A stretch of 34,137 nt of DNA from Candidatus Poseidoniales archaeon (GTDB lineage Archaea; Thermoplasmatota; Poseidoniia; Poseidoniales; Poseidoniaceae): the NCBI GenBank assembly GCA_003602575.1, contig QQRY01000053.1, positions 1-34,137 of the forward strand. Reading direction: 5' to 3'. The stretch's first letter is position 1, and the number at the start of each line of letters is the position of its first letter. This document shows positions 13,459-33,459 of this stretch, piece by piece. The notes beneath the pieces were generated by a model that searched no databases, had not been told where the DNA came from, and saw nothing but the letters and a program-made list of their open reading frames with translations. Position numbers and translations under genes: made by a program.

Positions 13459-13545
13459 TTTAAAACCCAAATAATGTCCTTTTGCCGAGCATTTTACCGC
13501 CAATAAGGCGATGCATTTTAGGTATAGACCTAGTGGAAGGGGAGC

Positions 13546-13551
13546 AGGTGA
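13546..13551 (+). promoter_or_regulatory. Shine-Dalgarno site fixing the surface-protein start
   Basis: AGGTGA stands four bases before the ATG at 13556 and, together with the signal peptide beginning there, decides against the earlier in-frame ATG at 13511. Confidence 0.65.
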
Positions 13552-13555
13552 TGTT

Positions 13556-16500
13556 ATGTTGGCCGGAAATGAACGAATTAAGACCTCTATTTTTTTGACA
13601 CTACTAATGATTTTAATGCCCTTTGCTGCAGCGACATCAATCAATACTTTTTCAGATGGTTCATCAGAGGTAGTGATTCAATTTAAGGACGGTGTTAACA
13701 CAGTAAATACCTCTGAAGGGGGCTTCTCGGTTCCTTCTGATGAGACTATTACTTCCGCATCATTAGATGTTTCAACACACCCATTTATCATGGCAGGGAA
13801 TACCAGAGTCGGAGTTGAATCAGGATTGCCTATTTGGGACCCTGTTCTAAATAATCAAGCTACAACTTATGATAATATTTCTAACTTCACCTATCAGGAT
13901 GATAATGGCAATCCTGTGCCTCTAAGTTTCAGTTCTGAGTCATTTATTACAGATTTTGAGTCTAACACTTCTGGATTTTCCAATACGTCAGCACTAGGAT
14001 TGGGGCAAGATCATGACGAAACTGGAGACCCTTTGACTTGGCAATATGGACGGAAAGCCGGTAGAAATGCTGTTGCTGGCCCTGATGCATGTGCATCTGG
14101 CGATATGTGCTGGGGTACTACGTTTGAAGATGATGATTACACCGATGACTCGACTGATGCAAATGAGAATACAAACAGTCCATTTTATTTCGAAATGACA
14201 TCTCCATCGATTTTCTTAGATCCAAACTTAAACGATACTTATCTTAGGTTTTCATCATGGCACTCTCTAAGAAAGAATCTAATGCCAAACGGCGACTATA
14301 CCTTTTCAGATTGTGCTTACCTAAAGATCGCTTCTTCTACCACCAATAATTTTGGCGCTGGGACCTTTTACAGTCATTTACAATTCACTCTACCTTACTC
14401 TACTGGTATATCTGCTTCAAACGGACTTTTCTTACGTCAAGATACGGCTCCTGCAGCGAATTTAATCTCAAGTGATTGTCTAGGAGTGCCATCAAACAAC
14501 TACGGTCTTGCAGGCACTTCAATCTCATCTTCCAATCAAGATGGATGGGCCCAATTAGCCGCTAATTTAGCTCCACACCTAGGAAAATATGTCAAAATAA
14601 AATTTGTTTTGGAGAGTACTGATACCGAACAACCAATTGCTTGGGGCGATAAATCTGGCTGGTATGTCGACGACTTCCAAATTGGAGAGTCATATGCAAG
14701 CGAAGGAGAAATGACAGTTACCAACGTACAAGCGCCGGTTGATTTTGATGACAAACAACCAAATGGTTTCGGTCTGTTATTTATTGACTCTTTCGAGCCT
14801 GGTGATTCAAGTATCACTATCGATATTAAAGATACCATGACGTCTCAATATATTTCTGTAGATGGAGACCAACTAAGAGATCTCGAAGGACCAGTGATTG
14901 AGTTGTGGGGAATAGACATAGATTCACATCCAATGATTTCAATTGTATTCAAATTTTCTTCGGATAGTTTAGGAGTTTCAACTCCTAGTTTACACGGATA
15001 TAATATCGGAACCAGGGTAGGGGATACTTTTGTTAATCTTGAAAACAACCGTGAACTGAACCTTGTAGATGGAAAATGGTCATTCAATAATCAAACAAAT
15101 GAATCCAATGTGTTGAAAATTGATTCATACGACTTGATTGATTACTTTTCAACTCCAATATATGGTGTCACCTTTTCCAGCATCGAAAGATGCAATTCTT
15201 ATAATGCAACACTCAGTTCCAATGGTTTAGAAAATAGTACAAATTTATCAAATAACACTTATCTAGAATTTGAAAACCCTATTTTCGATTTTGAATTTAC
15301 TCTCGTCTTGAATCAATCTTGTAACATTGAAGATATTTGGTTAGACTTATTTTTCGGTCATCATACCTCAAATGCCTATATCGATGTAGCTGATGATGGT
15401 GTCATTGATTGGGGCTTCATTGAACCAGCACAGGGAGATTTTGGCAGACAAAATCAACTTTGGGCGGGAGAATTAAATGGTGTTAGTCAAGGTGCAGTTG
15501 AGGAGAAACTCGAACTCGATGTCATAGCAGGAAATGTAACTGGCGCTTTCTTTTTACTTCCAAAATATTCGCATGTTGATTCCTTTGATTTCCTCTTGTC
15601 GGATAGTACAATCAACTCTATAAATATCTCATATGATTATACTTTAGACTTAGTTCTAACTTCCAATCTATCTATAAATTGTGGTAGAGTTGACGATTCC
15701 TCGGATATTTACTTTTCAGAATTAGATTTTACTAGTAATTGCATAGACCTGATGAACGTAGTTCTATCTACTTCCTTTGCTCCAGTATTCAAAACAGACC
15801 AATTCGGTGTTGATTGGATGCGCATAGGTGTGAAAATATCTCAGCCAGACCAGGATGGTTCAGGCTTCATCACTGTTTCAGATATGGATGCGATTTACAC
15901 ATTTACTCATACATTGAACGAATCTAATGGTTTTGACTCAATGCTTAGAGAATTCGTGGCATCGGAATCCCAATCTAGTCAGTCTAGCGAAGTATTTATT
16001 CCGATTGTCACAACATCTTCTCGAGGAGGTAGTATCAAATTTGATAATCTATCTATTACGACTGCATCAGGATATGACTCTTCATTGACATGGCTCAGTG
16101 ATAAAGAGGGCCTTTACCCAAGTGGCGAACTTTATGAAATCAAGACAACTCACGAAGTTCAAGCCTCAACAGGTTCTACTTTCTCTTCAGCACAATTGAG
16201 ATTTTCTTCAATTACTGGTGATGTTACATTTGTCTATGATCCAAATACTGGTTTTTCTGAGTTAAACGATGTTGGTAATTTACTGACCTTATCTCAAACT
16301 TCGTCAACAGCAGTTCCATTTGGCACTAGCGGTGGTAAAGAAATTACTTGGAGATTCATCGTTAACGGAGAGTGGGATGATACTTCTGAGGTGTCCATCT
16401 TCTCTGAAACTGTTGCTGCTGACGGCGTAGTTGGTATGCTTGGAGGTATAATCATTAATCCAGCGACTGGAAATGCTGTAGAGAACGATGCGGGGATTAA

Positions 16501-19468: not shown

Positions 19469-20286
19469 GTGTGAGTAGTGTGTCTTCTAGACTTGCTTGG
19501 AAAGATATTTCTTGGCAAGACCCCGATGGAGGAAAAATCATTCTTCACGGAGTCCTACCTACTATTGTATATCCTCGAAAACTAAGGCCGGACTATGAAT
19601 GGCATGGACTAGGTTTGCTTGAATCAGAAGATATCGTAGAGTTATGGGTTCAAGAAGAGAAAGATGAAGCAGAATCACAGGGTGTTAATCGTTCTCATGC
19701 TTTGATTTCTGGAGGGACAATGGCGCTTTATTTAGATGAATTAATCGAATTGGAAGATATTCCCTCGGGCAGATTTCCTGACCCAGAACCAAGAAGAGTT
19801 CATCGTCTTGCTGAGAGGCATAATAGGCCGGTTTACTTTATCGAACCATCATTTGATGATGAAGAATGGGAAGAACATATGCTCAAGGAGGCTAAGGAAG
19901 TTTCCCGTTGGAGGAAATTACTAGGATTAATCTCTCTGGGGGGAAAGTGGCGAAAGAGAGTTAAGAAGAATATTTTTGAAGCTAAAAAACCTCCGAAAGG
20001 AATCAGTGCAAATTTTGCTTCAGCATCGGTTTTAGCAGCCACTTGGTGGGACTTAAGCGAATGGCTGATTGGTGAAACCGTCTCCAAGTCAAGAAATGAC
20101 CGATTCGCAGCCAGGCTTAGAGGCGCATTAGCAGATTTAAGAAAGACCTACAATGATGATGCTTGCCTCCTGGTTCCTCTTGCTACTCCATGGCGTCATC
20201 AAATCATCAGTTCACTGGATTTATTACCCGAAGTAGAGGAGATTACTTCAAATGAAACAGATTCGGATACATCGGAGGAGGAGTAA
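19465..20286 (+). CDS. Conserved-looking cytosolic protein of unknown function
   Basis: Not recognised. The 273-residue product has no signal peptide or clear membrane segment. It contains a segment HALISGGTMALYLDELI, then RVHRLAERHNRPVYFIEPSF, a basic amphipathic stretch (SLGGKWRKRVKKNI), and RNDRFAARLRGALADLRK followed by ACLLVPLATPWRHQI. The last two recall, faintly, the end of TraB/PrgY-type domains (Arg-rich helix, then hydrophobic strand and His), but I would not assign it. The ATG overlaps the TGA of the surface-protein gene (ATGA), which suggests translational coupling, and the TBP-like gene starts two bases after its stop. An in-frame earlier ATG at 19387 would lie far inside the upstream gene and is unlikely. 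Confidence 0.6.
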   Translation: MSVSSVSSRLAWKDISWQDPDGGKIILHGVLPTIVYPRKLRPDYEWHGLGLLESEDIVELWVQEEKDEAESQGVNRSHALISGGTMALYLDELIELEDIPSGRFPDPEPRRVHRLAERHNRPVYFIEPSFDDEEWEEHMLKEAKEVSRWRKLLGLISLGGKWRKRVKKNIFEAKKPPKGISANFASASVLAATWWDLSEWLIGETVSKSRNDRFAARLRGALADLRKTYNDDACLLVPLATPWRHQIISSLDLLPEVEEITSNETDSDTSEEE

Positions 20287-20287
20287 T

Positions 20288-20824
20288 ATGGTAGCCGGTG
20301 GAGTCGACGTTCGCGTTGAAAATCAGATAGTTCGCTTTGTCTCTAGTCAGCCGATTGACCAAGAATCAGTCGTAGCTCAAATAGGTGGTCAAAGAAGTGG
20401 AGGTGTGGTCATTAAAGCCCTAGATAAGCCTAGGGCGACATTAGTTATCGACGGCGAAGGTAGAATTGTGGTTCATGGAACGCATAGAGTTGATGCCGCT
20501 AGAGCAGCCGCCAAAGAACTTCTTCTAAGACTGGGATTAGATGACTCGGGCCTACAAACCGAGTTAGGTCCAGTGATCGCTTCATTTAATTTTGATAGAG
20601 AGGTTGATGTTGAGTCATTAAATTTTGAAACTTCTGCTGGGCTATCTGAATATAATCAAAGGTTAGGATGTGCGGTAATCAACGATTCAAGACATAATTT
20701 GAAACTTTATGTATGGCCTAATGGAAAGTGTGTAACTACCGATGCAAGACATCCAAACATGGTGGCTATGTCCGCAATCTATTGGAAAAATCAATTTGAA
20801 GAAAATAATCACTTTGTAGCCTAA
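20288..20824 (+). CDS. Divergent TATA-binding-protein-like protein
   Basis: A 178-residue protein with two TBP-like repeats. Repeat 1 reads VRVENQIVRFVSS ... PRATLVIDGEGRIVVHGTHR ... AAAKELLLRLG; repeat 2 reads VIASFNFDREVDVESL ... EYNQRLGCAVI ... KLYVWPNGKCVTTDARH. Strand and helix spacing match archaeal TBP, but the DNA-kinking phenylalanines are changed: the FPG of repeat 1 is missing, FPG in repeat 2 is RLG, and the FSSGK turns are DGEGR and WPNGK. It may be a TBP paralogue that no longer kinks a TATA box. The GGAGGAG site at 20274-20280 precedes the ATG at 20288. It lies in a tight run after the surface protein and the unknown gene. Confidence is moderate because it rests on alignment by eye. 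Confidence 0.6.
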   Translation: MVAGGVDVRVENQIVRFVSSQPIDQESVVAQIGGQRSGGVVIKALDKPRATLVIDGEGRIVVHGTHRVDAARAAAKELLLRLGLDDSGLQTELGPVIASFNFDREVDVESLNFETSAGLSEYNQRLGCAVINDSRHNLKLYVWPNGKCVTTDARHPNMVAMSAIYWKNQFEENNHFVA

Positions 20825-20841
20825 ATTAAGCCTGTGGTAAA

Positions 20842-21729
20842 ATGCAAGAAAAACAGATTGTTTGGGATGGCCCGATAATCGATAATCACTTTCATCTAAA
20901 TCGTGATGGAAGATTTCTAGACGCTGCTAAAGATTTCAAGAATGTAGGCGGGACTGGATTAGTACTTGTTCACTGCCCCGATTTTTCTAATCCGCCTACT
21001 ACTAAGAAGGGCCATTCAGAAACCTACATTGATACAATAAAGATGGCTGAAATGGTCAAAAAAGAGCATGGTTTGGAAGTTAGGGTAGTCTTAGGGCCAC
21101 ACCCAGCTGCATTTGCACATCAATTCATCAACTGGATGGAAGAAGATCCTGAAAATGGTTCACAGAGGGCGATTCAAAATTATCGAGATAGTATTGATGC
21201 TGCCTTAGAATTTGTCAATGAAGGTCTTGCACATGCAATTGGTGAAGTAGGGCGTCCTCACTGGCCAGTAAGCGATGATGTTTGGCAATTATCCAATGAA
21301 CTTCTAGAAGAGACAATGCATCTTGCTGCACAAGAGGATATAGTCTTACAACTTCATGTCGAAGGAGAATTGGAATCGACGTACTCTGATTTGTCCAGAA
21401 TGGCAAATAAGGCTGGATTAGATGCTAATAAATTAGTTCGTCATTATTCACCTCCCAATATAGATTCTAAGATTACCAAAGGATTGACTCCTAGCGTATT
21501 AATTGGAAAGGGTGCATTAGAAGAATTACTCGATACGGCAAAGAGTTGTTCGCATGGATTTTTATTAGAAACCGATTACATGGATGACCCAAGAAGGCCA
21601 GGTGCTGTTTTGGGTCCAAAGACGGTCCCTAAGCGTACTAATCAATTACTCAATATGGGCATTGATGAAGAATTACTTTGGAAAGCTCACAAGGATTTGC
21701 CTGAGAAACTCTATGGTCCAGCAAATTAG
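20842..21729 (+). CDS. TatD-superfamily metal-dependent hydrolase (COG1099-like)
   Basis: A TIM-barrel metal hydrolase of the amidohydrolase/TatD group. It carries DNHFHL with His16 and His18, VRVVLGPHPAAFAH, a bridging GEVGRPHW motif, LQLHVEGE and HYSPPN with further His ligands, and LLETDYMDDPRRPG where the catalytic Asp is expected. These correspond to the archaeal uncharacterised COG1099 family rather than to bacterial TatD DNases. Substrate is unknown; DNA or a small-molecule ester are possible. The ATG at 20842 is 17 bases after the TBP-like gene with a weak GTGGT upstream, so it is likely the last gene of that run. Confidence 0.75.
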   Translation: MQEKQIVWDGPIIDNHFHLNRDGRFLDAAKDFKNVGGTGLVLVHCPDFSNPPTTKKGHSETYIDTIKMAEMVKKEHGLEVRVVLGPHPAAFAHQFINWMEEDPENGSQRAIQNYRDSIDAALEFVNEGLAHAIGEVGRPHWPVSDDVWQLSNELLEETMHLAAQEDIVLQLHVEGELESTYSDLSRMANKAGLDANKLVRHYSPPNIDSKITKGLTPSVLIGKGALEELLDTAKSCSHGFLLETDYMDDPRRPGAVLGPKTVPKRTNQLLNMGIDEELLWKAHKDLPEKLYGPAN

Positions 21730-21803
21730 CCAATTAAGTACATTTTTGGCCCAATCCTCCATCACATTCATGAATACCCGATTATACCCGTGGCTGGTGC
21801 AAG

Positions 21804-22907
21804 ATGTTGAAGCGTAGTTTTCCGTTCCTGATTCTAGTGCTATTTTTCCTGCCACTAGTGCCTATAAGTTCTGGTCAAGGCAATCCAACTCCAGGCGTCA
21901 ATATCGATTGTGAAAGTGATCCTGAATTGAATGTTCATCCATTATACTCAGAGCCAGTTGAGTTAGTCTGTACTATTGAGAATACTTCACAATTTGATGA
22001 GACGATAGAAATCAGTAATGAGTTTGAAGGCGGCACGTCAGTGCAAATACAAGGTGCTTCAGATGAGTATACTGTTGCAGGTGGAGAGACTGAAGAATTC
22101 ATAGTGACTTTTACTGGTGACGTTCGAATTCCTTCGACAGAAAGTTTTGATTTTGAAATTATTGCAACAGTTACTCAATGGCTGATTCCTGGTGAACTTC
22201 CAGAAATGGTTCAAAGTAATAGTTCAGTAGTCGGTAAGGTGGAAATAGGGACTTATGGTATTGTTGAGTTGTTAATTTCAGATAAGAGTACCCGTGCTAT
22301 GGAGCCAAGTGATGAGGTGACAATCAACCTACAATTCACCAATAAGGGAAATGATGAAGACAAAATTGAAGTCAGGATAAAGAATCAAGCAGAACTAATA
22401 GCCCAGGGCTTTTCATTCCCAATGTCTTCTTTCGTAGCAGAGGATTTAGCAATAGATGCGACTTCTCCAGTTAGAGAGATTGTAATTAGGGCTCCATCTG
22501 ATGTTTCTGAAAAGATTTCCACAAATATTCAATTTGAAGCATCGAGTACCAATGACCCAGATGCTCCAGTAAGTGCAATTTCAATCCCAGTATCGGTAGA
22601 GTCGAGCAGTAGCTCGGGGACTCTAACTGGATTGAGTGAAGATAGCCAAGACGATATTATTCTCTATGGAGCGATTGGAGGGGGAGTAATTCTATTCTTC
22701 ATGCTTGTGGGAATTATCACTCGTTCAATCAAAAAGAAGTCCAAAGATGAAAGTGATGGAATCGAACAAGCTATTGAACTCAATGACGAAGATGAGGGTG
22801 AATCACTTGGCGATGACCTTGATGATTTGTTCGATGATTTAGATGAATTTGATGATTTACCAGTTTCAGAAGATGAATTTGATGATTTACTTGATGATTT
22901 TGATTGA
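21804..22907 (+). CDS. Anchored extracellular protein with CARDB-like domains and acidic tail
   Basis: A 367-residue surface protein. A signal peptide (FPFLILVLFFLPLVPISSG) leads into two immunoglobulin-like, CARDB/NEW3-type beta domains (VELVCTIENTSQFDETIEI; DEVTINLQFTNKGNDEDKIEV). A membrane segment, IILYGAIGGGVILFFMLVGI, lies near residue 285. The cytoplasmic C-terminus is extremely acidic, made of repeated DDL, DEF and DDF units. The layout is the same as in the giant protein at 13.5 kb. A GGTG sits before the ATG. No enzymatic motif; a scaffold or cell-envelope role is inferred. Confidence 0.75.
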   Translation: MLKRSFPFLILVLFFLPLVPISSGQGNPTPGVNIDCESDPELNVHPLYSEPVELVCTIENTSQFDETIEISNEFEGGTSVQIQGASDEYTVAGGETEEFIVTFTGDVRIPSTESFDFEIIATVTQWLIPGELPEMVQSNSSVVGKVEIGTYGIVELLISDKSTRAMEPSDEVTINLQFTNKGNDEDKIEVRIKNQAELIAQGFSFPMSSFVAEDLAIDATSPVREIVIRAPSDVSEKISTNIQFEASSTNDPDAPVSAISIPVSVESSSSSGTLTGLSEDSQDDIILYGAIGGGVILFFMLVGIITRSIKKKSKDESDGIEQAIELNDEDEGESLGDDLDDLFDDLDEFDDLPVSEDEFDDLLDDFD

Positions 22908-23035: not shown

Positions 23036-23827
23036 ATGTTGGAACTCAATGGAAAGACGGCTTTTGTGTTCGGAGTTGCAAGCGAAGATTCGATTGCATG
23101 GGCCATATGTCAGAAGTTGGCAAGTGCGGGAGTAACGCTGTATTTGGGGTATCAAAAGAGGTTCATGAGTAGAATCTTCCAATTAAAGGATAAATTACCC
23201 CAAATCGCTGGCTTTTTCCCATTGGACGTGGCATCCGATGAGACTACCAAAGAATTCTTCGATGCCTTTAGCGCTGAGAATCCAGGTAAAAAGGCTGATA
23301 TTTTGATCCATGCAATTGGTTTTGCTCCTCGAAGTTGTTTTGATCGACCGATTCTATTTGTTGAAGACCAAGACATCAATACAGCCATGACAATTTCTGC
23401 TAATTCATTACAACGTTGCTTGAAGTTTGCTCTGCCATATCTTAATCCTAATTCCTCAACTATCACTCTGACTTATGCTGCCTCAAATCGCTATGTGCCA
23501 TCTTATGGCATTATGTCAATGGCAAAAGCGGCTCTTGAATGCTGGACAAGAGAGTTGGCATGTCACTTAGGCCCCGAAGGACATAGAGTGAACGCTATAT
23601 CATCAGGTCCAATTAGAACAATTGCAGCATCAGGGATACCTGGGTTTGATAACATACTGAACCATGTCCAAAACAATTCCCCTTTACGTAGAAATGTCAA
23701 CCAAGATGATGTAGCGGGAGCCACTTTATGGCTTGCTAGCCCACTAGCGAGTGGAGTTACAGGACAATGCATCTATGTCGATGCAGGATACTCGATTACA
23801 ATGGTCCCCGAGTCAATTATGCAATAA
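23036..23827 (+). CDS. fabI: Enoyl-[acyl-carrier-protein] reductase, FabI type
   Basis: A short-chain dehydrogenase that reduces the enoyl double bond in the last step of each fatty-acid elongation cycle. It is FabI rather than a general SDR: the N-terminal loop is FGVASEDSIAWAICQKL, the catalytic pair is Tyr157 and Lys164 (YxxxxxxK, same spacing as E. coli Tyr156/Lys163), and GPIRTIAASGIPGF is the FabI substrate-loop signature. The length of 263 residues is normal. It ends 12 bases before the giant synthase, which has no enoyl reductase domain of its own, so it most probably acts in trans on chains held by that protein. FabI is a bacterial enzyme and is unexpected in archaea. The ATG at 23036 has only a weak AGGCGGA upstream. 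Confidence 0.9.
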   Translation: MLELNGKTAFVFGVASEDSIAWAICQKLASAGVTLYLGYQKRFMSRIFQLKDKLPQIAGFFPLDVASDETTKEFFDAFSAENPGKKADILIHAIGFAPRSCFDRPILFVEDQDINTAMTISANSLQRCLKFALPYLNPNSSTITLTYAASNRYVPSYGIMSMAKAALECWTRELACHLGPEGHRVNAISSGPIRTIAASGIPGFDNILNHVQNNSPLRRNVNQDDVAGATLWLASPLASGVTGQCIYVDAGYSITMVPESIMQ

Positions 23828-23828
23828 T

Positions 23829-23834
23829 GAGGTG
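23829..23834 (+). promoter_or_regulatory. Shine-Dalgarno site of the type I synthase
   Basis: GAGGTG in the 12-base gap between fabI and the synthase, five bases before the ATG at 23840. It supports that start and co-transcription of the two genes. Confidence 0.65.
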
Positions 23835-23839
23835 TTCAC

Positions 23840-26800
23840 ATGACTCTTACAACAGCTGATGGTAAAATTTGCGAGGGTATAGAGCAGGGATTGTTCGAAC
23901 CCATCGCGATTGTGGGCATAGGCGCATTGATGCCAGATGCCGAAGATGTTGAAGCATTTTGGCAGAATATAATCGATGCTAAAGTCAGTATCGAAAGCGT
24001 TGTAGAAGATAGATGGCCTGGTAAAATAGAACACTTCTGGAAGGAAGGAGGGCCAGGAAATATCGACGAAGGATTTACTTACTCTAAAATAGGAGCCTTT
24101 GTCAAAAATTTCGAATTTGACTGGAGAAGGTGGCGTCAACCTCCCGGTACATTGGCCCAAATAGACCCATGTCAATTATGGGCGGTTGGAATTTCAGCTG
24201 CAGCCTTGGAAAATGCAGGATATGATGGAGTTGAGAAAGATATCGACCGCTCGAAGTGCGGGGTTGTATTTGCCAATGCTCTAGGCGGAGAAAATCGCAA
24301 TTTATCGAACATTAGGGTTTGGTCGAATCATACTAAACAGTTGGCTAAAAAGTATGGATTGCCTGAACAAAATCTCGAATCTTTCCAAGAAGAAATCAAT
24401 GAACAATCTCCTAGAGTCGATGAAGATACTATGCCAGGGGAATTGGCGAATGTGGTTTCGGGTAGAGTTGCCAACTTACTGGACCTACAAGGTCCAAATT
24501 ATGCCACTGACGCAGCATGTGCGTCTTCGATGGCAGCAGTCCTCGATGCATGCCGAATGTTACAATCGCGACAAGTCGATGTTATGCTTGCTGGTGCAAC
24601 AGACCGAACATTAGACCCAGCGACCTATGCAAAATTCAGTGCTATTGGAGCATTATCTGCTACTCATTCCACTCCATTTGACGCTAAAGCCAATGGCTTT
24701 GTAATGGGTGAAGGCGCTGGAGTATTAGTCCTTAAGAGATTGAATCAGGCTATTGAAGATGGCGATACGGTCCATGCTGTAATAAGAGGCATAGGAGGTT
24801 CTTCTGATGGCCGTGGTAAAGGGATTACTGCTCCTAGTCAAAGAGGACAGGTTCAAGCGATTGCTAGGGCTTACAATCAAGCGGGATACGAAGCATCTAC
24901 CGTTGAATTGGTGGAAGCCCACGGTACTTCAACAAAGGTTGGCGACGCAACAGAATTGTCGACATTATCGAGATTATGGGATGGTTATGATGGTGGAGAC
25001 CATGTAGCAGTTGGCTCCATAAAGTCGCAGATTGGTCACTTGAAAGCCGCAGCAGGTATTGCTGGTATTATCAAAGGCGCACTTGCACTACATCATCGAA
25101 CAATCCCTCCTTCTGCTGGATTTAAAACTCCAAACCCTACAGTTGAATGGTCGGAAATACCATTCTTCGTCCCTACTGAAGCAAGAGATTGGCCTAAGCC
25201 TTCAGAGAATCCTCGTAGAGCCGGAGTCTCTGCCTTTGGCTTTGGAGGGACAAATTTCCACATCGCTTTAGAAGGATATGAGTCGGATTATCACATCCCT
25301 CTTGCTAATCATTGGGAATCTAAGTGGCAATTATATTCTGATTCAGCACCCTCTGAGCCATCTATACTCGATGGTTCAGCCAAACCTTCAATGACTCATG
25401 AGGAACTAAAATCAATTGAAGGGGGAATGCTATTATTATCTGGACAATCCATTTCACAAGTCAAGAAGAAACTAGAATCTTTGAACTTTTCAGGACCATC
25501 TTTCGATGAAGATCCACGTGGACGAAGGCTCTCATTGGAATTGGACAAAGCATCAATCTTTGATTCATCAAATGAAGTTAGAATGGCAATAGTCGCCACC
25601 TCGTGGGCAGACTTTGACAAGCGAGTCTCACTTGCAGTCAAAGCAATGGATGATAAGGAGAAGTGGGGCTTTTTACAGTCTCAAGGAGTTTTGCTAACAG
25701 ATGAGCCTGCACTTCCAGCAAAGGCCAAAATCGCTCACATGTACCCTGGCCAAGGGAGTCAATACGTTGGAATGACTTTTGATTTGTACAAAAGATATAC
25801 ATCAGTTCAAGCGGTTTGGGAAAAATCAGACGAGACCATGGTCGATGTTTTAGATGGTGAGACATTATCCAGTTTTGTTCTACGAAGTGATTTGACCAAA
25901 GAAGAATTGGTGGAGAGTGAGCACAAACTCAAGCAAACAGAGTATACTCAGCCAGCAATGTTAACAGCCGATCTTGCAATCGAGAGATTGCTCAATGCGC
26001 ATGGACACAAACCTGACATGGTCGCTGGACACTCTCTAGGAGAGTATGCGGCATTGATGTCCGCTGGCATTTTGAACATGGATGGTGCATTACGAGCTTC
26101 TGCTGCTAGAGGTACGGAAATGGGCTCAGTACAAATCGATGATAAAGGGCTAATGGCAAGCATTACTGCGCCTTATCAAGAGGTCGAAGCGATAATCGAA
26201 TCCATCGATGGATATGTCATTTCAGCCAACAAGAACTCGCCAAAGATGACTGTTATTGCAGGCCAGACAGAACCTGTTAAGCAAGCAATGAAGATTTTTG
26301 AATCCAAAGGCTATTCTGCAACAGCGTTGGCAACATCTCATGCATTCCATTCTAGAATTGTTGCTCCAGCCAATGAGCCGCTACGTAGGTTCTTGGAAAC
26401 TCTTGAAATAAGCTGGCCTAAGATTCCTATTACTGCAAATGTTGATGGGCAATTCTATGATATGAAAGGAGACAACTCAAAGGATTCAGTTTTGAGTAAA
26501 TTAGCTCCACAGATGGCATCGTCAGTCGAATGGACTTCTCAAATAGAGACCATGTATGGTGCTGGTGCAAGAGCATTTGTCGAAGTTGGCCCGAAGCGCG
26601 CATTGACGATGTTTGCCACCCAAATCCTAGAAGGGAAGCCACATTTGCCGATAATGACCAATCATCCTAAGCAAGGCGGCATTGCGTCATTTTTGACTGC
26701 TATTGCCTCTTTGGCTCTAGCCGGGCGAAGACCTATGTGGCCTGAACCAACCTCTCAAGAACTATCAGAGGCATTTAGGGCAGGACCAATCGAAGCACAT

Positions 26801-29800
26801 TCAAAATCATCCAAGCCAACCACAATAAAATCCAATTCAGATGATTTGAAAACTAGGTCAAGGCCATTGCCAAGTAATGGGGCATCACCAGTAATTAGCG
26901 AGGTTAAAGCAGTAAGTCATGAAGTTTCTTCAGTCAATGTCGAAGTGTCAAATGAAGATGCTATCAATGACTATGTCGGCCAATTAATATCTTCAATGAC
27001 AGATTATCCGGCTAAGTTCTGTTCAGGAATGGTGGACATGAGATTAGTCCTTGGTATGTCTGAACAAGAGATTAGTTCTGCAATCAATAAAATTAGGAGC
27101 GAGTGTGAAACCGATTCGGAGTTTGAAATCAATAATTCTCAAACCATTGCAGATTTAGCAAGGTGGGTTAGAAAACCACCTCAGAGATTCTTAACAAAAA
27201 CTAAATCGATACATGTAGAGTCTAATTCGGCGCCAACTGGTGTTGTTAGCAATCAGGAAGACCGTAAAAAAGACCCATACGTGATTACCGGAATTTCACT
27301 AGGATTGCCTGGTGGTGAGAAGGTATTTTGTGAAGATACTTTCGAACGTTTAGTTCGTGGCGAAACCTGCATTTCGGAAGTTAGTGATGAGTATAAACAA
27401 AAACTTCTCGATAAAAATATCGTTCGATTGATCAAAGGTAGAGATGGTTCTGTAAATATGGAACAAGCGACCCAATTTGGAGACATACCTCAATTAGCTG
27501 GATTAAGAGGCGCATTTGACCTATCCGAAGAATTTGGAATCGATCCTAAATCTGTTTTAGCTTGGGATATTGCAACTCAATTAGCAGTGGCCTCAGGTTT
27601 ATTGGCGCTAAGGGATGCTGGAATCCCATTGACTCCAGTAGAACAAGTTGGCAAAGGAGGTCTGCGATTAATCACAAATTGGCAAGTACCTAAGATTCAT
27701 CGTGACAGAACTGGTGTGATATTCTCCTCTTGTTTCCCAGGAATACAATCTACATTGAAACATACCAAAACCAATGGGGATGATGGGGAAGGCAGATTTG
27801 ATCGTAGATATCTCTTCCAAGTGCTAAATATGGGTCATTCTCAGTTTGCACAGTATACAGGTATACGTGGACCAAACACTACTATCAATGTAGCCTGTGC
27901 TTCTGCAACTGCAGCATTTAGTGTCGCTGAAGATTGGCTAAGTAATGATAGAGTTGACAGAGTTGTAATCCTATCTGCTGATGATATTACTGGAGATGAT
28001 ACTTGGGAATGGTTTGGAAGTGGTTTTGCTTCATCAGGTGCGGCTTCAAGCAGCAATGTTGTCGAAGAATCTGCTTTGCCTTTCGATAAGAGAAGAAACG
28101 GACTCATACTCGGCATGGGTGCAGCGGCATTTGTCATAGAAAGACGCTCTCATGCACTTGAACGTGGAGTTCAACCTATTGCTGAGTTACTCGGCACAAA
28201 GACTGCCAATTCCGCTTTCCATGGGACTAGGCTCGATATAGACCATGTAGCAGAAACCTTTGACCAGTTTATTCATGAAATTGAAACCAATTGGGGATTA
28301 GACAGGCACGTAATAGCTCCTCAAACAGTATTTTTCTCACATGAGACCTATACTCCAGCCCGTGGAGGTTCTGCTCAATCAGAAGTCAAGGCTTTGAGGC
28401 AAACATTTGGATCAAGTACAGATAAGATAGTTATTGCAAATACCAAAGGTTTCACAGGTCATCCAATGGGTGTTGGAATAGAAGATGCAAGTATGTTTTA
28501 TGGATTGATGACTGGAAGAATTCCTCCAATTGCTAATCATAAAGAAGTTGACGAAGAGCTAGGAAATCTAAATTTATCTGAGGGTGGAGACTATCCCGAT
28601 TTGAAATACGGAATGAGGTTCGGTGCAGGTTTTGGCTCTCAAATTGCTCTTTCCTTCGTTCGGAAATGTGAATTTGAGGGTGAAAGAATTGACGGGTCGG
28701 TCTTCATGCAGTGGATAAGAGAACTGGCCAAGTCTGAAGACATAGATCTGAGAATTCTCCAAAACAAACTCGTCGCTTATGTCGATGGCCAGAATAATTT
28801 ACATGGCGGAGTTCAAGGAGAGGAGTGGCATATTGATACTAATATCAAGCATTCTCCAGCGGTAAAAGTCGAAGATAATACCGTTCAAGAGATTGAGAAA
28901 GAAATCCCAGTCGAGGTAAAACAACCAGTTCCACAACCAACAGTTCAAGCGGCTGCAAGTTCAACTATTGATTCAAGCGAATTGAGCGATGTTGTAATCG
29001 AAGTTGTGGTGAAGCATACAGGTTATCCAGCGGACTTTGTAGAATTAGACCAAGACTTAGAGGGCGAACTGGGAATAGATACAGTCAAGCAAGCAGAAAT
29101 CATGGCAGATATTCGTTCAAGATTCAATTTGCCAGTCGATGAGGATTTCATACTTTCAGATTACCCAACACTAAATCACATGATTGGATATATTCAGAAA
29201 ATGACTGGAGATTCTCCAGGTCCTGTAGAAGTTGCTGTTGCTGCAACAGCTGTAGTTGCTGAAGTCGCCCATGTGGCCGTTGAGGCAGTTGCTGAAGTGG
29301 TTCAAGAAGCAACGACTCCTGCCACGCCAACGGTTAGTGACGAGTCATTGAATGACATTGTAATTGAAGTCGTAGTCGAACATACTGGATATCCAGCAGA
29401 CTTTATCGAACTAGACCAAGATCTAGAAGGCGAACTTGGAATCGATACTGTCAAACAAGCAGAGATCATGGCAGATATTCGTTCAAGATTCAATCTTCCA
29501 GTTGATGAAGACTTCATACTTTCAGACTATCCTACACTCAATCATATGATTGCCTACATTCAAACTATGACTGGTACAGGAAGCGAAGTCAAACCAGTTC
29601 AAACCACTGAGAATCAAGAACCTCAAATTGTGCAAGAAATTGAACAACCTAAACCAATAGTCCAAGAGAAAGCCATCTCTACAGCAGATACTTCAGAGAT
29701 CGAAACTCGTCTTATTGAAGTTGTAGTTAAGCATACAGGATATCCTGCAGATTTTATTGAGATGGACCAAGACCTTGAAGGAGAACTGGGCATTGATACT

Positions 29801-32674
29801 GTTAAACAAGCAGAAATAATGGCTGAAGTTAGAGATATTTTTGCACTTCCAGTCGATGAAGATTTCATTCTAAGCGACCACCCGACTCTCAATCATTTCA
29901 CCGCTTACATAGTTAAGATGCAAGGTGGAGTACCTGAACTGGAACAAGAAGTTCAGGTTGTAATCGAAGAACCGGAAGAAGAACCTATCGCTACAGAAAT
30001 AGTAGAACAACCATCTACGCCTACTCCAACCAGACAAGTCTCAACAGAGGGATGTAGAAGATGGCAAGTTGAGGTTGAAGAGTGTTCTGGAGAATCATCC
30101 AAATTAGAATTAGAAGGTACAATCATTGTTACTGATGATGGCTGGGGAATTGCGGAAGAATTCTGTATTTTAATGGAAGAACGTGGATTGAATGCGATTA
30201 GAATCGGATTTGAAAGCGATATAAGAGATATGTCTGAGCAAAAAGAGGGTAAGCGAACAGTGTATCGTGCAGACCCTGGTAACATAGAACATATTGAACA
30301 GGTATGTGAGCAATTATCCAATGAAAATATTTCAGGTGTGGTTCACATGGCTGCATTAAAGTTAGCAGGTGTTGAGTGGGAAGAGGATACAACTCCTTCA
30401 TCACAAATTATCCTATCAGCACAAGGATGGTTCGCATTATTGAAAGGATTGGATGATAAATTAGCCAAACTAGACTCCGGCTTGATTGCATCAGTCACAG
30501 CTCTAGATGGTCGCCATGGAAACATTGGCGAACATTTCAATTCAGTACAATGTGCATCAAGTGGCGTTACAAAATCATATTCTTTCGAGAAGCCATCACT
30601 TCGTTGTAGAGCATTAGACTTACACCCAGATATAGTACTAGATTCTACAGAAGCAGCTAAAATAATCGAACAAGACCTGTTTAATTTGGGTGGAGAAGTA
30701 GAAATTGGTATTGACCGTGATAGTAGGCGCTGGACTTTAGTAGCATTTGCCGAAGATATCGAATCTGAACTAAAGCCATTGACTAAAAAAGATACTTGGA
30801 TAGTCTCAGGCGGTGGTTCAGGAGTTACTGCAGCATCCATAATCGGTGTAGCTAAGGCTAGTGAAAATGCGAAAGCACATTTCCTACTACTAGGGCGTTC
30901 TACACTAATCGAGGAAACCGAAGCATGGATTGACTGGGATGATGAGCAATTAAATCAACAAAAGATGAGTCTTAGAGAGGATTTGATTAAGTCCAGTGAA
31001 GATGGAAAAGTCACTATGGTTGAATGGAATTCACAATGGCAGAAATTTACTAGAAGTCGAGATGTCTACATAACACTCGATACAATCAATAATACTGGGA
31101 ATAAGGCGTTTTATCATTCAATAGATGTATTAGATCAAGAGTCCTTGGTCGAGTTAGGTTCTTCTTTAAAGCGTAAAATAACAGGCGTAGTTCACGGTGC
31201 AGGGTTAGAAGATTCCAAATTAGTATCCGACAAGAGCCATAGCATATTTGACAGAGTTGTACGAGTCAAAGTAGATGGTTGGAATGCATTGATGGCTTGT
31301 GTAAGGGCTTCAGGAATGGATAATCCAAATTTTGCTGCATGTTTCACCAGCGTAGCAGGAAGGTTTGGCAATGGTGGCCAGACCGATTATGCCGCAGCCA
31401 ACAGTGTATTAGATGCTGAGATGGCTAGAATGACTGCGAGTGGAGAGTGCAGGGCTGTAGCAATAGGTTGGACAGGGTGGAGAGATGTTGGAATGGCAAC
31501 GCGTGGATCTATTGAAGCGGTATTCCAAGCAGCAGGAATTGAAACCCTATCAGTTGAGAAAGGTGTAGAAATTTTCGTTCATGAAGCACTTGCAGGCGGT
31601 AAGCGACGAGTTCTTGGTTGTGGCTCTCTTGGTTTGATGGATAGGTTTGACAGTTTCCGTGAAGCTCCACTCAGGTTAACTGCAGACATGTCCGCAATCA
31701 TTGCAGACCCTTCTCGCTTTCCTTTTATTCACAAAGTAATCGATTTTGAAACCGATAAATCTCTTCTTACACAAACCACACTTTCAATGGAAGAACACTT
31801 ATTCTTAGACGACCATGCAATCGATGGAGTGCCCTATCATCCAGGGGTAATGGCATTGGAGATGTTTGCTGAAAACGCTTTATTACTAAATCCAATGACC
31901 TGTGTTGCAGGTTTTGAAGAAGTTAAATTTGGATTACCGATAAAACTACTAAAGGATGAAATGAAGGTTCGTGTCAGTAGTGTAGTGGAGAAGAAAGAAG
32001 GTTCTCTGACATGGGTTAGGTGTAGATTGGTTTCAGATCTAATGAACTCCAAGGGTGAGGTATTTGGTGAAAGAGAACATCACCAAGCAATGGTTCGACT
32101 AGTAGAGTTTAGCGATGATTTGAGACCTTTCTTGCAAAGTGAAGTGGATTCAATACCTCAAATTGGTATACCTGCTCCAGGAGATGTACAATTAATGCCT
32201 TCATTCATCTATCAAAGATATTTCCACGGGCCAAGATTCCAATCCCATGGTGGAATCTTGCGAGGAGTGGGTGATTTGGATCTACCAGGCGCTGATGGTA
32301 TCGCCTTAATGCGCAATCAACTTCCCATTACTGAGCAGTTTTCTATCGAATCACAGGGTGAAAAAGTATTGCTTGACGCGCTGCCAATGTTGATCGAGGC
32401 AGGATTCCAAAATGCTGGATTTGTGGCAATGGAGTCAGAAGGATTCTCATCACTTCCAGTAGGGATAGAATGGACCTCAATGCTAAGAGTTCCAGAGCGT
32501 AATGAGGTTTTGAGGATGAGAAGCCTGAGGACTTCGGTTGAAAGCGATGGAATCACCGTACATGATGTCATTATTATTGGAGATGATGATGGGCCGGTTA
32601 TGGCGCTAAAGGGTCTGAGGTTGAAGAGCATGGCACCAGTTCCTGAAGGCCAGAAATTCACGCTTAAACGCTAG
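23840..32674 (+). CDS. Type I iterative fatty-acid/polyketide synthase (KS-AT-psiACP-KS-ACP-ACP-ACP-KR-DH)
   Basis: A 2944-residue megasynthase. Residues 22-455: KS1, Pfa-like, with Cys227 in DAACASSM, His361 in VEAHGTST and His400 in GHLKAA. 630-935: AT with Ser732 in GHSLGEY and His837 in AFHS, typical of malonyl-specific transferases. About 1035-1115: ACP-like remnant without an attachment serine. 1145-1610: KS2 with Cys1353 in VACASAT, His1501 in SHETYTPARGG and His1541 in GFTGHPMG. Then three ACPs, each with GIDTVKQ (Thr1748, Thr1870, Thr1987), joined by Ala/Val/Pro/Glu-rich linkers. About 2070-2620: structural half and KR with a Rossmann loop at 2320 and Ser2504, Tyr2517, Asn2521. 2625-2940: double-hotdog DH with His2659 and Asp2846. 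No ER, thioesterase or PfaB-like domain is seen. It probably builds acyl chains from malonyl-CoA in the cytosol with FabI in trans; the product is unknown. Confidence 0.9.
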   Translation: MTLTTADGKICEGIEQGLFEPIAIVGIGALMPDAEDVEAFWQNIIDAKVSIESVVEDRWPGKIEHFWKEGGPGNIDEGFTYSKIGAFVKNFEFDWRRWRQPPGTLAQIDPCQLWAVGISAAALENAGYDGVEKDIDRSKCGVVFANALGGENRNLSNIRVWSNHTKQLAKKYGLPEQNLESFQEEINEQSPRVDEDTMPGELANVVSGRVANLLDLQGPNYATDAACASSMAAVLDACRMLQSRQVDVMLAGATDRTLDPATYAKFSAIGALSATHSTPFDAKANGFVMGEGAGVLVLKRLNQAIEDGDTVHAVIRGIGGSSDGRGKGITAPSQRGQVQAIARAYNQAGYEASTVELVEAHGTSTKVGDATELSTLSRLWDGYDGGDHVAVGSIKSQIGHLKAAAGIAGIIKGALALHHRTIPPSAGFKTPNPTVEWSEIPFFVPTEARDWPKPSENPRRAGVSAFGFGGTNFHIALEGYESDYHIPLANHWESKWQLYSDSAPSEPSILDGSAKPSMTHEELKSIEGGMLLLSGQSISQVKKKLESLNFSGPSFDEDPRGRRLSLELDKASIFDSSNEVRMAIVATSWADFDKRVSLAVKAMDDKEKWGFLQSQGVLLTDEPALPAKAKIAHMYPGQGSQYVGMTFDLYKRYTSVQAVWEKSDETMVDVLDGETLSSFVLRSDLTKEELVESEHKLKQTEYTQPAMLTADLAIERLLNAHGHKPDMVAGHSLGEYAALMSAGILNMDGALRASAARGTEMGSVQIDDKGLMASITAPYQEVEAIIESIDGYVISANKNSPKMTVIAGQTEPVKQAMKIFESKGYSATALATSHAFHSRIVAPANEPLRRFLETLEISWPKIPITANVDGQFYDMKGDNSKDSVLSKLAPQMASSVEWTSQIETMYGAGARAFVEVGPKRALTMFATQILEGKPHLPIMTNHPKQGGIASFLTAIASLALAGRRPMWPEPTSQELSEAFRAGPIEAHSKSSKPTTIKSNSDDLKTRSRPLPSNGASPVISEVKAVSHEVSSVNVEVSNEDAINDYVGQLISSMTDYPAKFCSGMVDMRLVLGMSEQEISSAINKIRSECETDSEFEINNSQTIADLARWVRKPPQRFLTKTKSIHVESNSAPTGVVSNQEDRKKDPYVITGISLGLPGGEKVFCEDTFERLVRGETCISEVSDEYKQKLLDKNIVRLIKGRDGSVNMEQATQFGDIPQLAGLRGAFDLSEEFGIDPKSVLAWDIATQLAVASGLLALRDAGIPLTPVEQVGKGGLRLITNWQVPKIHRDRTGVIFSSCFPGIQSTLKHTKTNGDDGEGRFDRRYLFQVLNMGHSQFAQYTGIRGPNTTINVACASATAAFSVAEDWLSNDRVDRVVILSADDITGDDTWEWFGSGFASSGAASSSNVVEESALPFDKRRNGLILGMGAAAFVIERRSHALERGVQPIAELLGTKTANSAFHGTRLDIDHVAETFDQFIHEIETNWGLDRHVIAPQTVFFSHETYTPARGGSAQSEVKALRQTFGSSTDKIVIANTKGFTGHPMGVGIEDASMFYGLMTGRIPPIANHKEVDEELGNLNLSEGGDYPDLKYGMRFGAGFGSQIALSFVRKCEFEGERIDGSVFMQWIRELAKSEDIDLRILQNKLVAYVDGQNNLHGGVQGEEWHIDTNIKHSPAVKVEDNTVQEIEKEIPVEVKQPVPQPTVQAAASSTIDSSELSDVVIEVVVKHTGYPADFVELDQDLEGELGIDTVKQAEIMADIRSRFNLPVDEDFILSDYPTLNHMIGYIQKMTGDSPGPVEVAVAATAVVAEVAHVAVEAVAEVVQEATTPATPTVSDESLNDIVIEVVVEHTGYPADFIELDQDLEGELGIDTVKQAEIMADIRSRFNLPVDEDFILSDYPTLNHMIAYIQTMTGTGSEVKPVQTTENQEPQIVQEIEQPKPIVQEKAISTADTSEIETRLIEVVVKHTGYPADFIEMDQDLEGELGIDTVKQAEIMAEVRDIFALPVDEDFILSDHPTLNHFTAYIVKMQGGVPELEQEVQVVIEEPEEEPIATEIVEQPSTPTPTRQVSTEGCRRWQVEVEECSGESSKLELEGTIIVTDDGWGIAEEFCILMEERGLNAIRIGFESDIRDMSEQKEGKRTVYRADPGNIEHIEQVCEQLSNENISGVVHMAALKLAGVEWEEDTTPSSQIILSAQGWFALLKGLDDKLAKLDSGLIASVTALDGRHGNIGEHFNSVQCASSGVTKSYSFEKPSLRCRALDLHPDIVLDSTEAAKIIEQDLFNLGGEVEIGIDRDSRRWTLVAFAEDIESELKPLTKKDTWIVSGGGSGVTAASIIGVAKASENAKAHFLLLGRSTLIEETEAWIDWDDEQLNQQKMSLREDLIKSSEDGKVTMVEWNSQWQKFTRSRDVYITLDTINNTGNKAFYHSIDVLDQESLVELGSSLKRKITGVVHGAGLEDSKLVSDKSHSIFDRVVRVKVDGWNALMACVRASGMDNPNFAACFTSVAGRFGNGGQTDYAAANSVLDAEMARMTASGECRAVAIGWTGWRDVGMATRGSIEAVFQAAGIETLSVEKGVEIFVHEALAGGKRRVLGCGSLGLMDRFDSFREAPLRLTADMSAIIADPSRFPFIHKVIDFETDKSLLTQTTLSMEEHLFLDDHAIDGVPYHPGVMALEMFAENALLLNPMTCVAGFEEVKFGLPIKLLKDEMKVRVSSVVEKKEGSLTWVRCRLVSDLMNSKGEVFGEREHHQAMVRLVEFSDDLRPFLQSEVDSIPQIGIPAPGDVQLMPSFIYQRYFHGPRFQSHGGILRGVGDLDLPGADGIALMRNQLPITEQFSIESQGEKVLLDALPMLIEAGFQNAGFVAMESEGFSSLPVGIEWTSMLRVPERNEVLRMRSLRTSVESDGITVHDVIIIGDDDGPVMALKGLRLKSMAPVPEGQKFTLKR
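26947..27180 (+). other. Degenerate acyl-carrier domain inside the synthase
   Basis: Residues about 1035-1115, between AT and KS2, follow the ACP pattern (a first helix, a TDYPAKF turn like the TGYPADF of the real carriers, then the LGMSEQE turn). At the attachment position where the other carriers have LGIDT, this one has LGMSE, so a Glu (residue 1075) replaces Ser/Thr. It probably cannot carry a phosphopantetheine and may be structural. Confidence 0.5.
28976..29920 (+). repeat. Three tandem ACP domains
   Basis: Three copies of an ~75-residue carrier at about 28976-29200, 29339-29568 and 29696-29920. Each has HTGYPADF, DQDLEGELGIDTVKQAEIMA, LPVDEDFILSD and PTLNH. Copies 1 and 2 are nearly identical also at the DNA level, for example around GCAGATATTCGTTCAAGATT in both, while copy 3 differs more. 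The linkers vary. Confidence 0.85.
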
Positions 32675-32680
32675 ATTATC

Positions 32681-32685
32681 GAGGT
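32681..32685 (+). promoter_or_regulatory. Shine-Dalgarno site of the PPTase gene
   Basis: GAGGT in the 17-base gap after the synthase stop, six bases before the ATG at 32692. It supports the start and the operon reading. Confidence 0.55.
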
Positions 32686-32691
32686 CTTCTA

Positions 32692-33459
32692 ATGAAAGAA
32701 GGATTTGAAATTCTCGAACCACCGATAACAAAACCTGCACCAAGATTACTTTGTTTTCGCTGTCCTGTATTGTCACGTAATCTCGAAGAGGTAGTACTTG
32801 CAAATGTCGATGAAGTCTCTACATTTGCCATGCAGAAGCGTAGAGATGAGCATCTATCTGGACGATGGCTACTTGCTCAAGCATTAGATGTGTGGGGGAT
32901 CAATCCCTCTGAACTAGAGATTAGGAGGAATCAATACCGAGCACCTAGTTTGGCATATTTGAGGGGTCTATGGAAAAACACAGCATTGCCATCTATATCC
33001 ATTGGTCATTCAGAGGGGTGGGCATATGTTGCTTTGATTGAAAATGGCTGGACAGTCGGAATTGACGGGGAGCCTGATGAACGTCGGATTGCTGAAAATG
33101 CATTTGATATGATGGCCTCTGGAGAAGAATTACAACAGTTGAGGTCAAATCCACATATGGCAATTAGAACTTGGACCGCTAAGGAAGCACTGCAAAAAGC
33201 GATGCGATTAGGCATGAATTTAAATCCACGTAAAATTGAATTTCCAATTGGAGTAAAAGAATGTAATTTTTCAATTGAAAATTTAAATTTTCAATTGGTT
33301 TCTTGGACTCATAAAGAGGCTCATATTAGTCTGGCTTGGGGTGAAGGTGATGGCTATGATTCAGTTCCAGAAGATGAGTTGCTAGAGAGAACGAGAATGG
33401 CTATGGAAAATACGGATTCATGGGGAGTAGGTTGTAGCACCACTAGAAATAATGTTTAA
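32692..33459 (+). CDS. 4'-phosphopantetheinyl transferase, Sfp type
   Basis: Transfers the phosphopantetheine arm from CoA to a carrier protein. The magnesium-binding motif is VGIDGEPDE with Asp125 and Glu127 (VGIDIE is more usual), and the second signature is WTAKEALQKA with Trp161, Lys164 and Glu165. At 255 residues it is a Sfp/Gsp-type pseudo-dimer rather than a short AcpS. It starts 17 bases after the synthase and is on the same strand, so it is probably the dedicated enzyme that activates the three tandem carriers. If the attachment residue there is threonine, this enzyme would have to accept Thr, which is unusual. The gene ends two bases before the stop of the convergent MerT-like gene. 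Confidence 0.88.
   Translation: MKEGFEILEPPITKPAPRLLCFRCPVLSRNLEEVVLANVDEVSTFAMQKRRDEHLSGRWLLAQALDVWGINPSELEIRRNQYRAPSLAYLRGLWKNTALPSISIGHSEGWAYVALIENGWTVGIDGEPDERRIAENAFDMMASGEELQQLRSNPHMAIRTWTAKEALQKAMRLGMNLNPRKIEFPIGVKECNFSIENLNFQLVSWTHKEAHISLAWGEGDGYDSVPEDELLERTRMAMENTDSWGVGCSTTRNNV

Follow-up and report, generated by a model that had tools for sequence, protein, structure and literature searches.

The window analysed here, the entire 34,137-base contig C49 of a 1.97-Mb metagenome-assembled genome (MAG; 87% complete) from the archaeal order Poseidoniales, encodes three enzymes head to tail on the + strand: a FabI-type enoyl reductase (263 residues), a type I megasynthase (2944 residues) and an Sfp-type 4'-phosphopantetheinyl transferase (PPTase; 255 residues), separated by 12 and 17 bases. 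The megasynthase is a real, order-wide archaeal synthase of the type I fatty-acid kind, and its acyl carrier proteins (ACPs) have threonine in place of the serine that usually bears phosphopantetheine. Judging from the sequences, we think it likely that together these genes constitute an operon for a dedicated fatty-acid synthase that activates itself, carries phosphopantetheine on threonine ACPs and probably makes a saturated product. The threonine carriers point to an unrecognised variant of very old biochemistry. We also lean, with somewhat less assurance, towards the broader view that a deep lineage of archaea, plentiful in surface seawater, carries out fatty-acid synthesis wholly on threonine-phosphopantetheine, each detected carrier being a Thr carrier whose own PPTase acts in trans within Poseidoniales and is fused in cis elsewhere among Thermoplasmatota.

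The gene layout is exactly that described in an earlier reading of the bare sequence (the original prediction), and the three families named there were borne out by Pfam and NCBIfam profile searches of the window proteins. These returned FabI models for the first gene; two ketoacyl-synt domains, Acyl_transf_1, three PP-binding domains, KR and PKS_DH_N for the second; and ACPS with 4PPT_N for the third. Ketosynthase (KS), acyltransferase (AT), carrier, ketoreductase (KR) and dehydratase (DH) lie on a single chain with their catalytic residues (for DH, the His only), as expected of a type I fatty-acid or polyketide synthase.

Threonine carriers and the adjacent transferase

The general assumption is that phosphopantetheine is attached through serine. 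All three tandem carriers of the window protein read LGIDTVKQAEI, with Thr replacing the phosphopantetheine Ser. The original prediction of three tandem ACPs stood as far as the domains go, each scoring above the PF00550 cut-off, but it had overlooked that the attachment residue is Thr and not the canonical Ser. Modelled with AlphaFold2, ACP1 adopts the ACP fold and its Thr opens helix II; query TM-scores of the model against solved ACPs range from 0.67 to 0.80 among the 50 matches listed.

Across 91 genomes, the site was Thr in 196 carriers, Ser in 39 and any other residue in none (235 sites), as counted with a pattern of fixed flanks and a free site at one locus per genome; the set includes the actinomycete Nonomuraea and a contaminated MAG, G281 (codes beginning f, g, G and L denote families, genera, genomes and loci). 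A profile-based tally without fixed flanks (rows printed; 167 redundant loci) agrees for the tandem carriers, the other residues belonging to ψACP, a degenerate domain described below. Ser carriers came from genera g2 (12/12, G281 not counted), g9 (18/18) and g18 (8/8) and from family f11 (1/15). All four Thr codons are in use (ACG 84, ACC 48, ACA 34, ACT 30), which argues that selection keeps the amino acid and not the codon; the Ser codons are all TCN, one step from ACN. Ser was the only residue found in nine other organisms from the plasmid collection (13 records matched, carriers read in 11) and in two Pfa-like controls.

The Thr/Ser state changes twice on a megasynthase tree with a Thr outgroup, each change hitting all tandem carriers of a protein; the tree (KS1 to KS2, 53 rows) was built by a quick method and has several long branches and one row that is 20% filled, and the count excludes a mixed row and another that lacks a carrier. 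Two changes from Thr to Ser would be its simplest reading. The mixed protein, from locus L137, combines a Ser carrier with three Thr carriers in a single chain (S-T-T-T). Together with the twofold switch in all tandem carriers, it suggests that Thr and Ser do the same job.

An AlphaFold2 model of the PPTase (pLDDT 89.6) has human AASDHPPT and Sfp as its closest folds, and a sequence search of the PDB gave no match at E≤0.1. Residues G123, D125, E127, W161, E165 and K169 are invariant across 45 sequences, and the motif WTAKEALQK is encoded at 33172-33198. Given this normal Sfp-like fold and the intact motifs, modification of Thr is the simplest reading.

Carriers and PPTases were also counted genome by genome. 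In the window's own genome, PF00550 finds no genuine carriers beyond the three Thr carriers (a fourth, weak match is phosphoglycerate kinase), the operon PPTase is the sole PPTase match and the other KS-family matches are two thiolases; with the same location across the order, this agrees with the self-contained line originally proposed. Carrier matches were present in 16 of 22 further genomes, and in 14 of these all lay within the megasynthase (G315 judged from fragments). Eleven of the 14 are Thr types and three are Ser types (G035, G050 and G164), giving 12 genomes, the window's own included, in which every detected carrier is of the Thr type. Genomes G329 and G360 each have one additional Ser carrier outside the megasynthase, and all six megasynthase-lacking genomes searched were without a carrier match at E≤0.001. 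Over 292 genomes, megasynthase and PPTase were found together in 169, the megasynthase alone in 15, the PPTase alone in one and neither in 107 (Fisher p 6e-62, kinship of the genomes ignored). At least three of the 15 (G035, G131 and G186) have a PPTase open reading frame adjoining the megasynthase that the Pfam search missed, and the single PPTase-only genome, G293, is 65% complete.

Catalytic domains and predicted route

Active sites (Table 1) were read from an alignment of 70 megasynthases, one of which is without the KS1 part and two without the KR-DH part. That all catalytic residues are visible, as originally claimed, held for KS1, KS2 and KR, for Ser and one His of AT, and for His of DH, whose second residue is taken up below. 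The HAFH motif of AT we take to indicate malonyl specificity; its His834 is kept in 66/70 rows, the other four, all from outside the order, having Ala. The first 'ACP' of the original prediction, between AT and KS2, turned out to be degenerate. Profile matches across loci place D, E, G, A, N, V or P, or S in some lineages, at the attachment column of this ψACP, within a variable motif, and the window protein has Glu there with Ser one position earlier. KS2 finds its best solved-structure match in 3-oxoacyl-ACP synthase 2 (E 9e-22). The FabI sequence contains YGIMSMAK, which fits Tyr-x6-Lys, presumably the FabI motif, and FabI lies directly upstream of the megasynthase in all 13 Poseidoniales loci that hold the megasynthase start (11 distinct contigs).

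Table 1 Features of the operon and its upstream neighbours in the window.
Feature	Position	Strand	Basis
FabI-type enoyl-ACP reductase (acting in trans), 263 residues	23036..23827	+	Pfam adh_short_C2 6e-68; best NCBIfam models are FabI
Type I megasynthase, 2944 residues, KS1-AT-ψACP-KS2-ACP-ACP-ACP-KR-DH	23840..32674	+	Pfam, NCBIfam; per-domain matches here and in related loci
KS1, Cys227/His361/His400	23885..25309	+	Pfam; each residue identical in 69/69 aligned rows having it
AT, GHSLG ... HAFH	25724..26749	+	Pfam; Ser732 and His837 identical in 70/70 rows
ψACP, degenerate carrier-like domain between AT and KS2	26951..27175	+	Profile matches
KS2, FabF/KAS-II-like, Cys1353-His1501-His1541	27320..28879	+	Cys and first His 70/70; second His 69/70, one X
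ACP1, Thr1748 at phosphopantetheine site (codon 29081-29083)	28970..29206	+	Profile match; AlphaFold2 model
ACP2, Thr1870 (codon 29447-29449)	29336..29572	+	Profile match
ACP3, Thr1987 (codon 29798-29800)	29684..29923	+	Profile match
KR region, Ser2504/Tyr2517/Asn2521/Lys2477	30080..31609	+	Pfam KR; residues identical in 68/68 rows having them
DH, PKS-type, His2659	31670..32671	+	Pfam PKS_DH_N; His 68/68
Sfp-type 4'-phosphopantetheinyl transferase, 255 residues, GIDGE	32692..33459	+	Pfam ACPS above, 4PPT_N just below gathering score
TBP-like, TatD, choice-of-anchor T (upstream neighbours, context only)	20252..22907	+	Kept in 36, 36 and 31 of 38 loci, several truncated

On these assignments, the adjacent PPTase would move 4'-phosphopantetheine from CoA onto the Thr of each tandem ACP. 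AT would then load malonyl units, KS1 and/or the FabF-like KS2 would condense them, KR would reduce and DH dehydrate the product, and FabI would reduce the enoyl chain in trans, most likely leaving the carriers loaded with a saturated acyl chain. The pairing of FabI with a FabF-like KS2 also suggests saturated acyl chains. No thioesterase domain was found in the three-gene block, so the chain probably passes to CoA or directly to an acyltransferase. Candidates for the latter, PlsC-like enzymes, are encoded across the order.

Several observations weigh against this reading. Escherichia coli ACP(S36T) is described, in the part of the source available to us, as non-functional and not modifiable with 4'-phosphopantetheine (PMC3340395), so a Thr-competent PPTase would be required; an S36T variant at the same site is also used in PMC13343975, likewise seen in part. 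The FabI gene scores below the FabI equivalog cut-offs (at best 219.7 bits against 391, NCBIfam). Within DH, His2659 is the only catalytic residue that could be placed, the second being unassignable in the alignment. PF00550 under-detects carriers (one of three in G075, one of two in G043), and carriers elsewhere in a genome could escape it. A PPTase correlate of Thr also failed. Within the order, Gln precedes the catalytic Lys in 43/43 PPTases of Thr operons and 0/17 of Ser operons, leaving out the PPTase of L162, which lacks a carrier call. Outside the order it is found in none of seven PPTases (six archaeal, including that of the S-T-T-T protein, and that of Nonomuraea), which have Leu or Thr there, and only one of 26 conserved PPTase columns changes in both Ser clades, against about 1.2 expected. 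We therefore rejected this Gln as a general determinant of Thr use: it failed out of sample, and chance could account for the joint change.

Distribution in the order and beyond

Megasynthase matches were found in 38 of the 59 nearest relatives. In a draw of 292 genomes from the order, 184 had a match, spread over 17 of 22 genera; with completeness of 90% or more and contamination of no more than 5% required, 25/35 genomes have it. It also lies on a 2.06-Mb MG-II chromosome deposited as a single record (CM001443.1; L082 in the one-contig genome G059). FabI, megasynthase and PPTase are kept in 38, 38 and 37 of 38 loci, in the order TBP-like, TatD, (anchor protein), FabI, megasynthase, PPTase; several of these loci are truncated, and L078 and L145 are the same contig. 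A survey for the block with the same flanks, which the original prediction had proposed, thus found it order-wide with the flanks conserved. A scan of genome contigs with patterns taken from one sequence returned 78 loci, all titled euryarchaeote or Poseidoniales.

Among the 59 nearest relatives, genera g3, g4, g6, g8 and g10 of family f2 had no megasynthase match. Every genus except g1 stays together on the megasynthase tree. Presence in the common ancestor followed by loss would be the simplest account, with transfer within the order as the alternative. Genus g18 (L143 and L172) is classed in f1, and its megasynthase groups with f2 and has Ser carriers; it was possibly acquired by transfer within the order.

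A draw across the phylum gave matches in 103 of 389 genomes, 17 of them outside the order under seven family codes, with longest open frames of 3,090-3,824 residues. Thirteen of the 17 have a PPTase match. In six loci (L133-L138), which encode Thr-ACP megasynthases, the PPTase motif stands in frame behind DH, and in G325 the PPTase match falls inside a 3,276-residue frame, a seventh fusion in cis; L132 (G334) has no fused PPTase. The megasynthases of L132 and L136 have additional N-terminal ACPs.

Bacteria were sampled through the plasmid collection only. There, Nonomuraea gerenzanensis (NZ_LT559118.1), an actinomycete, was the only one found with the same KS2 signature, in an unannotated KS-AT-KS2-ACP-KR-DH protein that is 40% identical over 74% of the query and has an LGVDTVKQAEI Thr carrier. 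It differs in having a single carrier and no ψACP profile match, and FabI was not found in the stretch around it. Behind the megasynthase lie a fused biotin carboxylase-biotinyl-carboxyltransferase frame (L103, 15640-21117; Pfam) and then a PPTase; the fused carboxylase looks like a malonyl-CoA supply within the cluster. Its position in the tree, among archaeal long branches, is not trusted. Similar bacterial proteins presumably occur elsewhere; none was confirmed in this analysis.

Alternative explanations

One alternative is a Pfa-like synthase of polyunsaturated fatty acids (PUFAs) or secondary lipids, or a polyketide synthase, making something other than a plain saturated fatty acid, with FabI in a partial or other role. 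The best named whole-protein model is indeed PfaA (TIGR02813, 896.8 bits), and the window protein has in common with Pfa systems, as far as the consulted part of PMC4882568 describes them, tandem ACPs, the KS-AT-ACPn-KR-DH domain order and a PPTase partner. The score nevertheless stays under the curated cut-off of 1010.1, PfaD (TIGR02814) gave no match at E≤1 in the window's own genome, itself 87% complete, and no FabA-like DH is among the Pfam matches at E≤0.001. Taken with FabI, fixed beside the megasynthase, these two negatives favour full reduction to saturated chains; Thr in place of Ser at the carriers also speaks against a Pfa-like enzyme, which we consider unlikely. A plain PUFA synthase is not supported, given the PfaA score and the missing PfaD match.

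About as doubtful is the idea that Sfp-type PPTases in general accept Thr and Ser alike, Thr then reflecting drift without consequence. The mixture of both residues in the L137 protein fits it, as do the minimum of two switches and the failure outside the order of the PPTase change that tracks Thr within it. Drift sits poorly with the retention of Thr over 196 domains, with the exclusive use of Ser in the other plasmid-collection organisms and the Pfa-like controls, and with the reported death of the E. coli S36T carrier (PMC3340395, in part).

That the Thr carriers are never modified, with structural ACP-like domains, CoA thioesters as substrates and a PPTase serving some other substrate, strikes us as quite improbable. 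Archaea are often described as ACP-independent in fatty-acid synthesis, which would suit it, and so would the unmodifiable E. coli S36T protein (PMC3340395, again from part of the text). Against this, an almost invariant motif shows only Thr or Ser, and within this one operon Ser has arisen two or more times. Catalytic D, E, W and K are all retained in the PPTase, which occurs without the megasynthase in only one of 170 genomes, has no other detected carrier in its own genome and is fused in cis elsewhere.

An assembly chimera or bacterial contamination has a negligible chance: although the source is a MAG and base composition is not strictly continuous with the flanks as had been claimed (GC 0.40-0.45 per kb in the locus, slightly above 0.36-0.43 upstream), the chimaeric contig named at the outset as a refuting condition is excluded by the MG-II chromosome record, the 184 genomes and the conserved synteny.

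Lipid context and significance

Genes for possible partner enzymes also favour the fatty-acid synthase reading. PlsC-like proteins (PF01553) are encoded in 58 of 59 relatives and in none of four archaeal controls; PlsC as a partner specific to the megasynthase was rejected, since PF01553 is found in megasynthase-lacking genera too. The PlsC-like frames are of about 270 and 530 residues, with three matches in most megasynthase-bearing genomes and one or two in megasynthase-lacking f2. For malonyl-CoA there are three genes for carboxyltransferases and one for an AccC-like biotin carboxylase. In the excerpts seen of PMC6461757, the archaeal glycerol-phosphate backbone enzyme is encoded in none of 270 MAGs, and glycerol-3-phosphate (G3P) dehydrogenase in all genera but one. 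One possible fate of the product is incorporation into membrane lipids, ester or mixed, built on a G3P backbone.

Earlier work has noted fatty-acid genes of bacterial character in this group (PMC7852524, citing Villanueva et al.), and the emphasis in PMC6336850, PMC9723583 and PMC6741140 is on fatty-acid degradation, all four papers being cited from partial text. In the literature searched, mostly without subscription papers, we recognised no account of a Poseidoniales type I synthase or of natural Thr carriers. At the bench, Ser-to-Thr serves as a dead ACP control (PMC3340395, from the portion seen); a natural Thr-carrier family with repeated Thr-to-Ser switches would be a ready test of what PPTases require. 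An ACP-based, FabI-equipped type I synthase also bears on whether Poseidoniales make fatty-acid membranes and, if the reading is true, the archaeal side of the lipid divide becomes directly testable.

Neighbouring genes

Profile matches bear out the archaeal character of the neighbours that had been named: Cdc6, a TBP-like protein, a SelB-like domain, and CoaD with a GTP-dependent dephospho-CoA kinase. The TBP-like protein (20252-20824), syntenic with the operon, has one clear Pfam TBP match that lies far under the TBP equivalog cut-off. A 1,985-residue protein (13511-19468) has no Pfam or NCBIfam match at E≤0.001 and is itself matched upstream of the operon in 32/38 loci. The SelB-like protein (11172-12194) matches EF-Tu domain 2 and has no Pfam GTPase-domain match at E≤0.001.

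Comparison with known systems

The nearest named system is PfaA/Pfa, which shares KS, AT, tandem ACPs, KR and a PKS-type DH in one chain with a PPTase (PfaE) nearby, and whose tandem ACPs are phosphopantetheinylated on Ser (PMC4882568, in the part covered). The window protein differs from it in a second, FabF-like KS in the chain, in its Thr carriers and in the adjoining FabI. Fungal-type type I fatty-acid synthases, with their phosphopantetheinyl transferase (PPT) domain, resemble the Thermoplasmatota proteins outside the order in fusing the PPTase to the synthase. The archaeal PPTase is, however, Sfp-like and not AcpS-like, the fungal PPT domain being a weak fold match (2wat, rank 43), and the fungal-type enzymes have a different domain order and different KS and AT types. 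With the Sfp-type PPTases, human AASDHPPT and Sfp itself, the archaeal enzyme shares the fold and the D, E, W and K motifs; what sets it apart is that its carriers present Thr.

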